Below the pieces are notes generated by a model. That model saw nothing but the letters and a program-made list of their open reading frames with translations, was not told the DNA's origin and ran no database searches. The translations under genes were made by a program, and so were the position numbers. A stretch of DNA of 45,023 nt from an uncultured bacterium. Its GTDB lineage: Bacteria; Atribacterota; Atribacteria; Atribacterales; Caldatribacteriaceae. The stretch is from assembly GCA_937922705.1 (NCBI GenBank), contig CALAIW010000024.1:1-45023 (forward strand), given 5' to 3'. Below are positions 605-6,574 of the stretch, piece after piece; positions within the stretch are counted from its first letter, which is position 1, and each line of letters begins with the position of its first letter.

Positions 605-832
605 AGGATCACCCCAGCGTGTATTTAGCTGGGGAGATGAGACTCCCAAACGAGAATCGGCGCAAGGCACTCTCCTCGAAAGCTCTCACTCCTTAAAGCT
701 AATCTCCTCGATGTACCCAAAGGGTGCAGAAAAGGACCTAGTCTGTGAACCACAACCCAAAAGGGCAAAAATTTTTGAGAAAACCCCTAAAGTTTTTCCA
801 CTCCATTCCGATACTTCGAGGTGAGGGAATGA

Positions 833-912
833 AAGGGCAAACTCTCCGAAAGGAGAGGGCGCAAAGCCACAGGCCTACGGCAAAACGCCACGGCGGCTGG
901 GCTGCCAAGTCC
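833..912 (+). promoter_or_regulatory. c-di-GMP-I (GEMM-I) riboswitch aptamer
   Basis: The aptamer core is recognisable in order. GGGCAAA (835-841) is followed by a stem CTCTCC/GGAGAG closed by a GAAA tetraloop (842-857). Next come the conserved CGCAAAGCC (about 860-868) and CAGGCCTA, which includes the expected tetraloop-receptor side. A short stem GGC...GCC follows, then the closing GGCTGGGCTGCC (894-906). GGCA at 836-839 can pair with TGCC at 903-906 to form P1. This order and the invariant CGCAAAGC block are those of the GEMM-I class that binds cyclic di-GMP. It lies about 50 nt before the GTG of the lipoprotein gene on the same strand, so it most likely controls that gene. Confidence 0.88.
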
Positions 913-916
913 CTTG

Positions 917-965
917 GCGCGTCTTCTCTCCTTGGAGAGGATGCCGAAGGGGTGAGAAGACGTGC
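917..965 (+). promoter_or_regulatory. Putative expression platform: hairpin enclosing RBS and start codon
   Basis: Bases 917-928 pair with 954-965 as a 12-bp stem with a single G-U. The GTG start (962-964) lies in the 3' arm and the Shine-Dalgarno GAAGGGG (946-952) is inside the loop. A competing hairpin CTCTC/GAGAG at 926-939 reuses part of the 5' arm and would free the start. This is a plausible translational switch. Which state c-di-GMP favours cannot be told from the sequence. Confidence 0.5.
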
Positions 966-1606
966 AACGCAAGATATACTTGGCCCTTTTGGGTATCCTC
1001 TTTCTTGCGGTCTTTATCGTCGGATGTTCTCCTGTCTCCTTTGAGACAAAGCCTCTTTCGCCTGCAAGCCAAATAGGCGGTAAATTCATTGAACGTTCTT
1101 CTGAGCGTGTCCTTCTTGATGTACCATTCCTTCCCCAGGTTCCCCCTGGAGATTGGTCAAACACCAGAAACTGTGGTGTGGCCTCAGCAGTTATGATCGC
1201 CGCATACGTCCATGGCGTTACGCCCACACCTGAAGACATCAGAGAGGCCAACGAGTGGCTCCACAATCGCTTCGGTCTTCCTATCAACGGCTACAACGGG
1301 GAATACACCAATGTCTTCCAGATTCGGGCGTACCTTGAGAATCGGGGAGTTCCCTCTCGCATCGGCATGGGGAACTTTGCCACTCTCCGAAAGCTTCTGG
1401 AAGAGGGAAAGCCAGTTCTTGTCGCCGTTTTTGCCAACATGAATGTGGCTCAGCCACGACACGCCATGGTAGCCGTAGGGATAGACAATGCCTGCATCTA
1501 CGTCCATGACCCAGGAAAACCAAATGGCGCCTACAATAACTACCCGCTTCCTCAATTCCTCTCCGCCTGGGAAAAACAGGGTAACTGGTACGTAACAATA
1601 GATTAA
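962..1606 (+). CDS. C39-like cysteine peptidase lipoprotein
   Basis: The protein has 214 residues. It starts with a basic N terminus, a hydrophobic segment and a lipobox IVGC (Cys22), so it is probably anchored as a lipoprotein outside the cytoplasmic membrane. The mature part resembles the Peptidase_C39_2 papain-like fold: a nucleophile region NCGVAS (Cys71), a PRHAMVAV block (His167) and VHDPG (Asp183), which together give a Cys-His-Asp set. The substrate is unknown. Proteins of this fold cut peptides or act as surface hydrolases. The GTG start is chosen because GAAGGGG sits 9 nt upstream and the signal peptide begins there. A c-di-GMP-I riboswitch precedes it, so its level should follow c-di-GMP. 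Its TAA overlaps the stop of the convergent thioredoxin-like gene. Certain as a gene; catalytic activity is inferred. Confidence 0.8.
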   Translation: MQRKIYLALLGILFLAVFIVGCSPVSFETKPLSPASQIGGKFIERSSERVLLDVPFLPQVPPGDWSNTRNCGVASAVMIAAYVHGVTPTPEDIREANEWLHNRFGLPINGYNGEYTNVFQIRAYLENRGVPSRIGMGNFATLRKLLEEGKPVLVAVFANMNVAQPRHAMVAVGIDNACIYVHDPGKPNGAYNNYPLPQFLSAWEKQGNWYVTID

Positions 1607-2109
1607 AGAATTTCCTTAAGGTACGCTTCAAAATCTGCTTCGGAAATTTCGCGCCGTTCCTCTCGAACGATGTTCCCCCGGCGGTTGAAAAAGACATTAT
1701 GGGGGACCCAGGAGACGTCGTAGAGTTTGACAACCTGCGTCTTTTGGGTATCAATGGCTACAGGATAGGTGAGTCCATTCTCTTCCACAAAGTGCTTTAA
1801 GGCTTCCTCTGTGCTTCCCCCAATGTACCCAACGCCAAGGACCACAAGTCCCCGATCTTTGTACTTACGGTACATTGCCTCAAGGACTGGTGCCTCACTC
1901 CAGCAGTGAGAGCAAGAGGGGGTAAAGAAGGTGAGAACAATAGGCCTTCCTCGGTACTGGGAGAGGCGTACTTCTCCACCCCCAAGAAGGGGAAGCGTAA
2001 AATCCTTCGTTTGTATATCCACAACCGTGAAGAGCTGATCCTTAGCAAAAGCCACAAAAATCGCCAATCCCGCACAGATAACAACAACAAGAAAAATCCA
2101 CCTCTTCAT
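1603..2109 (-). CDS. TlpA/ResA-like membrane-anchored thiol-disulfide oxidoreductase
   Basis: This 168-residue protein has an uncleaved-looking N-terminal anchor (about residues 4-22) and then a thioredoxin fold of the AhpC/TSA-Redoxin type. The redox motif is CSHC (Cys66, Cys69) and a VP cis-proline candidate follows at 135-136. Proteins of this family reduce disulfides outside the membrane, for example during cytochrome c maturation or in defence. No cytochrome genes are nearby, so the partner is unknown. The start codon overlaps the stop of the arsR-like gene (ATGA at 2106-2109), so the two are translationally coupled and probably one transcript. Confidence 0.82.
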   Translation of the reverse strand: MKRWIFLVVVICAGLAIFVAFAKDQLFTVVDIQTKDFTLPLLGGGEVRLSQYRGRPIVLTFFTPSCSHCWSEAPVLEAMYRKYKDRGLVVLGVGYIGGSTEEALKHFVEENGLTYPVAIDTQKTQVVKLYDVSWVPHNVFFNRRGNIVREERREISEADFEAYLKEIL

Positions 2110-4573: not shown

Positions 4574-6574
4574 TTATTCCTCTTCTTTGAGCACCTTCTC
4601 AAGGTCTTCAGGCAAAATGACCCCCATGGTACAAAGTATTTCCCCAAGAGGCCGTTTTTCTATCGCTTGCACTCGAAGCGCCTCAACAAGGTGTCCTTCT
4701 TCGATTAAGCCTCTTTCGACAAGTTTCTCTCCAAGACGCAAAGAACGGAGCAACAAAGGCTTTTCAAGGGCATCAAGCCCCCGGGCAATGGCAGAGAAAG
4801 GAGCAAGAACCATGAAAACCTTCCTTTTTCCAAGCCTCGCTTGGATCTCCTCGATAACTCCTTGGGAAAGAGGCCTAGAAGAGGCGAGGATGAGAAACGT
4901 CTTACCACACGCCACAGGAAATACTCCAAGTCGCCTACATATCTCAAGGAGGCGCTCTTCAACCATGCCTTGGGGGAGAGAGAAATCACGTATCTCGAGC
5001 AAGCTACTCCTGAGGAGTTCCCCAAGACTGGCAAGAAGGTCTCTTTCTGTTACCACTCCCTTTTCCACAAGCTTCTCTCCCAAGGGCTTGTCATCTTTCT
5101 CCTGTAAAACGGTGTACAGCGTCTTTGGGTCAACGACCCCTTTTTCGAGCAAAAGATCACCAAGGCGTCGCCTGTACCGGGCAAGGACCTGAGGTAAAGG
5201 GTAGGAATGGTCGGTTTTTTGCCACCGAGGACGGTTCTTGGGAAAACCAAAAAGCGCCACTCTCCAAGCTCGAACCGCAGCCAAAAAATTCACGATGTTT
5301 CCCCAAACCATGCGTAAAGGCAAAAGCGGGGGTACAAAGCACCCAAAAAAGGCAGAACGCCACCCATACACACTCTTGAGAGCGGCTGCCCGCATAACTT
5401 GCCTCTCCACCATGAGAAAAGTGAGGAACACACTGAGCCAGAATGAGGGTGTTCCTCTTGGATACATCGGTGGAAGCGGCACGAAAAGGGAAAGGAGGAA
5501 GTAGACGAAGGCAATATACCCTAGGAAGGGAAGAAGATTGGCGTATTTTGCTTTCCAATCTCGATAGAGGCTATATTTCGCCATAGGGGGAAGACTGCGA
5601 TTCCTCAAGACATCTCTAAGAGAAAAGCTCTGGAAAGAAATTCCGTATATCCAGCGCGATTTTTGCCTTACTGCCTCTCTCAGGGTATTTGGGAAAATTT
5701 CTCGAATAGCGATGTACTCTACCACCACACGGCCGTCATCGAGTACTCGCTCAACCCCCTCGAGGAAGAAATGCGTGGGGATACCAAGCTGGGCAAAGTG
5801 GAGAGAAAGTTTATAGTCCTCGGTCAAGCTTCTTTCATCAAAGAGATCTTGCCACCCAACACGGTCAAGCACCGAACGGGCGATAACAAATCCCGTGCCT
5901 GCCGAAGGGACAAAGGCCTGGGCTGCCTCACGCGCCAGAAGACCCCGATAGTGGTTCTCAGCAAACTCATCGGCGTACGTCGAGGAAGTAAGATACTTGA
6001 AAAAGTTCTTCCAGGTGGGATAAAACTGGAGCGGAAACACTGGCAATTGGATAACTCCATGCTGGAAGGCGAGGTAATTAGCAAGCTTCAAAAGGGTAGG
6101 ATGCACAACGTCCTCTGCGTCGAAAATGACGTAACAAGCAAAGCGACAGCGCTTCTCTTCCTCAAAACGACGAATGAAACGGAAGACTTGATTCAGGTTC
6201 TGGGCCTTACTCGTTGGTCCTTCCTTAGAATTGACGACTGCATGGATATTGGGGTAGAGTCCTTCCAAACGTTTTACTTCCCTTTGTGTTTCCTCATCGT
6301 TTGGATACACTCCCACAAAGACGTGGAACAGTGAGAGGGGATAGTTTACCGAAGACATGAGGTTTTCGAGCATGGGACCTATGACCCGAGCCTCGTTCCA
6401 GGCAGGTATAAGAACTGCCAAAAGCCGTGCCGGAACACTGTCCAGATCGCTTAACCGAAGACGACTGCCAACCCTCTTCCTACCCCAAAGGTAGTAGAGA
6501 AGATCCCAGAAAAGGTCATCAAGGCTGAAAAAGAGAAAAAGGACTACAATAGTAAGTCCGAACCAGTATAGCAT
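4574..6574 (-). CDS. NfrB-like family 2 glycosyltransferase with C-terminal MshEN (c-di-GMP-binding) modules
   Basis: This 666-residue membrane protein has an N-terminal helix (1-22). It is followed by a processive GT2 domain with IPAWNEA (56-62), the DAED metal site (152-155), TED (251-253) and QKSRW (304-308), and then several membrane helices (about 335-450). From residue 470 a GspE/MshE N-terminal-type domain begins. It carries the tandem RLGxxL...LGxxL pattern of c-di-GMP-binding MshEN, and a second copy of that tandem motif closes the protein (613-664). E. coli NfrB has the same GT2 plus MshEN plan and makes a secreted polysaccharide under c-di-GMP control. By analogy this protein should polymerise or export a surface glycan when c-di-GMP is high. 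It is the last gene of the glycosyltransferase operon, 49 nt after tadA. No NfrA-like partner is visible. Confidence 0.87.
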   Translation of the reverse strand: MLYWFGLTIVVLFLFFSLDDLFWDLLYYLWGRKRVGSRLRLSDLDSVPARLLAVLIPAWNEARVIGPMLENLMSSVNYPLSLFHVFVGVYPNDEETQREVKRLEGLYPNIHAVVNSKEGPTSKAQNLNQVFRFIRRFEEEKRCRFACYVIFDAEDVVHPTLLKLANYLAFQHGVIQLPVFPLQFYPTWKNFFKYLTSSTYADEFAENHYRGLLAREAAQAFVPSAGTGFVIARSVLDRVGWQDLFDERSLTEDYKLSLHFAQLGIPTHFFLEGVERVLDDGRVVVEYIAIREIFPNTLREAVRQKSRWIYGISFQSFSLRDVLRNRSLPPMAKYSLYRDWKAKYANLLPFLGYIAFVYFLLSLFVPLPPMYPRGTPSFWLSVFLTFLMVERQVMRAAALKSVYGWRSAFFGCFVPPLLPLRMVWGNIVNFLAAVRAWRVALFGFPKNRPRWQKTDHSYPLPQVLARYRRRLGDLLLEKGVVDPKTLYTVLQEKDDKPLGEKLVEKGVVTERDLLASLGELLRSSLLEIRDFSLPQGMVEERLLEICRRLGVFPVACGKTFLILASSRPLSQGVIEEIQARLGKRKVFMVLAPFSAIARGLDALEKPLLLRSLRLGEKLVERGLIEEGHLVEALRVQAIEKRPLGEILCTMGVILPEDLEKVLKEEE

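Follow-up and report, generated by a model that had tools for sequence, protein, structure and literature searches.

A c-di-GMP-I riboswitch in front of a C39-like lipoprotein peptidase of Atribacterota, with a predicted switch antisense to its P2 arm

We have analyzed a 45,023 nt stretch of DNA from an uncultured bacterium of the Atribacterota (Caldatribacteriaceae; GenBank assembly GCA_937922705.1, contig CALAIW010000024.1), referred to here as the window. Near its beginning lies a complete c-di-GMP-I riboswitch aptamer of the GGC variant, followed on the same strand by the gene of a lipoprotein that is, by family and modelled fold, a C39-like peptidase of the papain fold (Table 1). The GTG start codon of this gene is found 52 nt past the end of the RF01051 match. 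The gene appears to stand alone, because a convergent ResA-like gene (1603-2109, minus strand) begins where it ends. Upstream of the riboswitch, the intergenic region at about 150-620 contains several short palindromic-looking repeats (cattcccgc..., aagccggaatct).

Table 1. Coordinates of the riboswitch, its leader and the peptidase gene in the window
Feature	Position	Strand	Basis or remark
P1 helix, 5' strand	822..828	+	pairs with 910-916, 7 bp including wobbles; from sequence
c-di-GMP-I riboswitch aptamer	827..910	+	RF03167 / RF01051
Aptamer P2 arm, GGGCAAACTCTCCGAAAGGAGAGGGCGC	835..862	+	target of the antisense leader; includes G836, equivalent of G20
P3 arm	865..903	+	followed by J1/3 G904-C905; C905 equivalent of C92
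Hairpin over ribosome-binding site and GTG start	917..965	+	mutually exclusive with the anti-P2 duplex
Anti-P2 segment, GCGTC..CTCTCC..GGAGAG..TGCC	919..945	+	near reverse complement of 835-862
Shine-Dalgarno GGGGTG	949..954	+	7 nt 5' of the start; from sequence
C39-like lipoprotein peptidase, 214 aa, GTG start	962..1606	+	Pfam, alignment, AlphaFold2 model
Lipobox I-V-G-C, residues 19-22, Cys22 lipidation site	1016..1027	+	G21 and C22 invariant in 14 sequences
Gln59, putative oxyanion-hole residue	1136..1138	+	invariant in class
Cys71, putative catalytic nucleophile	1172..1174	+	invariant
His167, putative catalytic His	1460..1462	+	invariant
Asp183, putative catalytic Asp	1508..1510	+	invariant

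The GGC variant of c-di-GMP-I was reportedly described by Weinberg in 2017. Using Rfam cmscan, the model of this variant (RF03167, c-di-GMP-I-GGC) matched at 827-910 with 65.9 bits (cut-off 59, E 1.7e-13) and the general c-di-GMP-I model RF01051 at 826-909 with 73.9 bits (cut-off 35). The initial annotation had claimed a full GEMM-I core, to be checked with RF01051, and both points hold, with the GAAA-capped stem (842-857), CGCAAAGCC and GGCTGGGCTGCC all found in the aptamer. It had also set the start at position 833; the riboswitch itself is real, but the RNA begins at 822-827, and the leader as far as 965 is part of the switch. The three ligand contacts of Vc2 (G20, A47 and C92) correspond to G836, A863 and C905, which are of the c-di-GMP type, and the combination G-A-C at these positions is common to 82 of the 86 Atribacterota aptamers. 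The position of G20 is a selectivity factor (PMC9262584), and the G at 836 led us to reject a cGAMP-type GEMM-Ib riboswitch, which has an A at position 20. With two Rfam models over their cut-offs, contacts of the c-di-GMP type and eight GGDEF genes in the same genome, the aptamer is predicted to bind c-di-GMP, and as far as can be read from its bases it almost certainly does. Elsewhere in the phylum, three c-di-GMP-I aptamers from a second group of families (L124, L143 and L149, in G039, G031 and G033) have position 20 occupied by A in place of G, as is characteristic of cGAMP sensors, and each precedes a similar secreted protein of about 130 aa. A further c-di-GMP-I aptamer (L045, G011:C19:14838-14924) is degenerate, with 44.5 bits and the C92 equivalent apparently lost; the gene behind it codes for a protein with two HD domains, similar in appearance to an HD-GYP phosphodiesterase.

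The protein behind the riboswitch has the N-terminal hydrophobic stretch and the lipobox with its cysteine that are characteristic of bacterial lipoproteins. It matched PF13529 (Peptidase_C39_2) in Pfam with 53.2 bits (threshold 24, E 6.4e-14), covering positions 1-142 of the 143 in the profile. The closest solved structure by sequence was the C39-like peptidase 3ERV, with which C71, H167 and D183 align. An AlphaFold2 model built from 14 relatives (pLDDT 81, pTM 0.74) also matched 3ERV in Foldseek with E 4.4e-9, a comparison at the level of the fold. Gln59, Cys71, His167 and Asp183 were invariant across the 14 relatives. The lipobox protein with a C39-like Cys-His-Asp set anticipated by the initial annotation is thus recovered down to single residues (IVGC, Cys71-His167-Asp183 and Gln59), and so are the C39 family and the papain-like fold. 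Judging from the conserved residues and the model, the peptidase is probably active. Its fold neighbours are diverse, including the C39 domains of PCAT1 and ComA, staphopains, phytochelatin synthase and the pseudomurein endoisopeptidase PeiR, and NCBIfam gave no family for the 214 aa protein. Both observations would suit a C39-fold enzyme whose targets are small peptides, bonds of the cell wall or isopeptide bonds, or a binding protein without enzymatic function, instead of a protease of surface proteins. We consider this unlikely, given that 3ERV was the best match by sequence and by fold and that all the catalytic residues are invariant. Three known families were discarded: LapG (no PF06035 match at E<=1 in Pfam), transglutaminases (no Pfam match) and the zinc Pro-Pro endopeptidase PPEP-1 (no HExxH zinc site in the 214 aa sequence).

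The genome to which the window belongs (1.85 Mb, 99% complete) has three riboswitches of the c-di-GMP-I type. The second precedes a lipoprotein with a CarboxypepD_reg domain and a metzincin-type HExxHxxGxxGH motif, and the third a Cache-type chemoreceptor; domains were called on the metzincin and on chemoreceptors related to this one. Within the class, the riboswitch was detected in 22 of 25 genomes, including all 12 of the best-quality ones. The C39 lipoprotein gene was present in 16 class genomes and always had the riboswitch directly upstream (16/16; one of these genes is split over two contigs and the copy in G004 has an internal stop). Most of the other targets in the class are metzincin lipoproteins, chemoreceptors or a MannoseP_isomer cupin. 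Outside the class, the phylum has up to 15 riboswitches per genome, often in tandem, and the second group of families has a diverged C39-like lipoprotein (PF13529, 1e-17), related to that of the first group with 97% profile-profile probability at 22% identity. It was found in 13 genomes, with the riboswitch upstream in 12. The pairing thus recurs in 28 of the 29 Atribacterota genomes with such a gene, while the same riboswitch model gave zero matches in 14 control genomes, which excludes chance. The association of riboswitch and peptidase is a phylum-wide regulon. Close relatives of the protein appeared only in Atribacteria, besides two remote ones at 24-25% identity, in a pattern-based, non-exhaustive scan of 84,980 species; the named relatives are Candidatus Atribacteria MAGs.

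Other genes are of possible interest as well. The metzincin-type lipoprotein (L001, G000:C8:25124; relatives L012, L018, L022, L030, L032 and L034) combines its HExxHxxGxxGH motif with a Met-turn-like VMD and is a second peptidase-like target of the same riboswitch. It was matched by no Pfam peptidase model, and comparison of its metzincin domain with solved structures gave a match for the CarboxypepD-like part only. In the second group, one riboswitch (L135, G036:C236:6530-6616) stands before a lipoprotein that by eye resembles a subtilisin-type protease, a third catalytic class. The window also contains, about 3 kb from the riboswitch (4574-6574, minus strand), a family 2 glycosyltransferase with a C-terminal MshEN domain (PF05157, 3.8e-7). 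Domains of this kind are known elsewhere to bind c-di-GMP, and the protein is a second possible effector of this messenger.

Between the aptamer and the start codon lies a leader, one segment of which can pair with the P2 arm of the aptamer over 23 pairs (-40.4 kcal/mol), a value matched by one of 10000 dinucleotide shuffles, and 31 of 2000 stem-shuffled hairpins of equal composition reached the leader-P2 complementarity of the window. This complementarity is beyond chance. The hairpin that alternatively covers the start region has -29.4 kcal/mol (z -2.6). The anti-P2 signature (p<=0.01) was found in 13 of the 16 class leaders of the peptidase gene, being absent from the orthologues L021, L037 and L041. 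The cupin leaders have the same design in six of seven cases over a different P2 sequence, and one metzincin leader has the signature too (L034, p 0.007). Most metzincin leaders, every chemoreceptor leader and some 35 leaders of the second group lack it (L114, one of these, had p 0.015), so that it cannot be a general property of c-di-GMP-I riboswitches. In Cd1 (c-di-GMP-I) and pilM (cGAMP), switching uses the P1 strands and P2-P3 is a stable scaffold (PMC9262584). The window has the same aptamer fold as Cd1, Bc1 and pilM, and again an alternative pairing between aptamer and platform, but its platform is complementary to P2 over the full length of the arm, unlike in Cd1 and pilM. Invasion of a helix other than P1 is known from ZTP riboswitches (PMC10907184); a platform antisense to the whole P2 arm was not found described for c-di-GMP-I in the literature examined. 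Four leaders of the second group (L126, L140, L146 and L148) have TGCCTTTCAACT-like segments antisense to the 5' strand of P1 and J1/2, with a U-run directly after P1, a platform design unlike that of the window class.

The antisense leader could be a by-product, a pyrimidine-rich segment kept for the purine-rich start region, whose pairing with P2, a purine-rich strand too, would involve no functional exchange. Both targets are indeed GA-rich, the P2 arms are nearly invariant within a family and three orthologues do without the feature. We find this doubtful for several reasons. Both halves of the P2 arm add to the complementarity, and the leader bases that face its 5' half lie mostly in the loop of the start hairpin. 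In 13/13 leaders a GCGUC/GCGCC complementary to the aptamer core GACGC/GGCGC has been retained, the cupin leaders show the same arrangement in another sequence, and few hairpins of equal composition reach a match of this quality (see above). Some five of the paired positions have two-sided changes, for the most part between gene families. The pair counts are biased towards pairing, as duplexfold looks for the best one, and within a gene family P2 shows little variation.

The direction of the switch was derived from the two competing folds. In all 13 leaders the anti-P2 state left the start region more open than the aptamer state did, both at 37 and 60 C. For the window at 60 C, the openness was 0.47 in the free leader, 0.14 in the aptamer-locked one and 0.81 in the anti-P2 state. 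In the unliganded equilibrium at 37 C the start region of the window was already mostly hidden (0.15-0.20 unpaired), and the modelled switch is predicted to be visible only at 60 C or with an anti-P2 state reached kinetically. Because the anti-P2 and start-hairpin folds exclude each other and the start is more open in the former, an OFF switch is predicted, and in this model c-di-GMP probably acts by closing translation. An alternative would be a riboswitch and a peptidase that are equally real, with an ON or transcriptional switch and a ligand-stabilised P1 or other pairing controlling RNA polymerase or exposing the start codon. The peptidase would then serve the sessile state, in matrix remodelling or extracellular nutrition. 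Near the Shine-Dalgarno there is an AAGGGG to which the P1 3' strand CCCUU could pair, a U-run directly follows P1 in many related leaders, and Bc1 is a c-di-GMP-I riboswitch that combines transcriptional and translational control (PMC11218506). The window itself lacks the U-run after P1, and its sole terminator-like pattern is weak and near chance level. Besides, P1 and the sequestering hairpin can coexist, which leaves ligand binding without an obvious way to open the hairpin. We regard an ON or transcriptional switch, and with it a role in the sessile state, as improbable.

Our preferred explanation is translational repression at high c-di-GMP. Without ligand, the leader segment would invade the aptamer and pair with its P2 arm, freeing the Shine-Dalgarno and the GTG, and the gene would be on. 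With c-di-GMP the aptamer would be locked, the leader would pair with the start region and the gene would be off. At low c-di-GMP the exported, lipid-anchored C39-like peptidase would be made, trim or release surface lipoproteins and help the cells to leave the surface. Aptamer, gene, domain and fold, and their conserved association are observed; that the riboswitch controls translation of the peptidase in this direction is reasonably likely, and that its task is to release a surface protein has a somewhat less than even chance. In 9 of the 16 class genomes the peptidase gene is directly followed by a member of one adhesin-like lipoprotein family, which is united by a conserved N-terminal domain, its longer members bearing SdrD_B, SpaA, divergent InlB or PKD domains. 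Three of these nine neighbours (in G011, G016 and G017) consist of the N-terminal domain only, with about 200 aa. The window gene has no adjacent member, and two homologues are located on another contig (G000:C36). The adjacent repeat lipoprotein is a tentative candidate for the substrate in these relatives.

Protease systems tied to c-di-GMP are known in other bacteria. In the LapG-LapD-LapA system of proteobacteria, LapG is a periplasmic cysteine protease (C93/BTLCP) and low c-di-GMP favours release. The peptidase described here would likewise be a cysteine protease tied to c-di-GMP, with release again favoured at low c-di-GMP, but it belongs to another family and is placed under a riboswitch, whereas LapG is controlled by protein sequestration. 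In Clostridioides difficile the exported protease PPEP-1 (ZmpI, CD2830) lies behind a class I c-di-GMP riboswitch and is negatively regulated by c-di-GMP (PMC6366702), and its gene adjoins that of its adhesin substrate CD2831 (PMC6447587). The predicted OFF switch and the adhesin-like neighbour in 9/16 genomes, the window not among them, resemble this case. PPEP-1, however, is a zinc protease secreted by a Gram positive, and not a lipid-anchored peptidase of the C39-like cysteine type, and the neighbouring repeat lipoprotein had no riboswitch of its own in Rfam, class II included. The pairing is not without precedent, since tandem c-di-GMP-I riboswitches upstream of a putative cysteine protease of the transglutaminase-like COG1305 are already tabulated for Bacillota (PMC12452182). 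There too a c-di-GMP-I riboswitch lies upstream of a putative cysteine protease, and some Atribacterota C39 leaders also have tandem aptamers, but family and phylum differ and the COG1305 protein is not known as a lipoprotein. No paper joining Atribacter and riboswitch, or c-di-GMP riboswitch and C39 peptidase, was found in the literature searched (the original description of the GGC variant lies outside it).

Atribacterota are a poorly known and barely cultured phylum. The initial annotation had suggested a c-di-GMP-switched surface protease. Its regulatory half, a switched lipoprotein peptidase, is strongly supported by the phylum-wide conservation, and the reading as a whole is supported in part. 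Its idea of an independent version of the same logic seems apt for a protein that is neither LapG nor PPEP-1; by analogy, the logic known from these two would be built here from unrelated parts. The most far-reaching reading is that Atribacterota evolved their own c-di-GMP-governed surface shedding, in which a C39-like lipoprotein peptidase, repressed through P2-antisense pairing, cleaves a neighbouring repeat-bearing surface lipoprotein. Taken with all its parts we consider it speculative and rather unlikely. A single RNA would be enough for an in vitro test of the P2-antisense platform. If the shedding model is right, c-di-GMP-controlled protease release of surface proteins has at least three separate origins in unrelated components (LapG, PPEP-1 and Atribacterota), protease-based release would be a general solution for leaving surfaces, and we would have the first concrete view of c-di-GMP output in Atribacterota.
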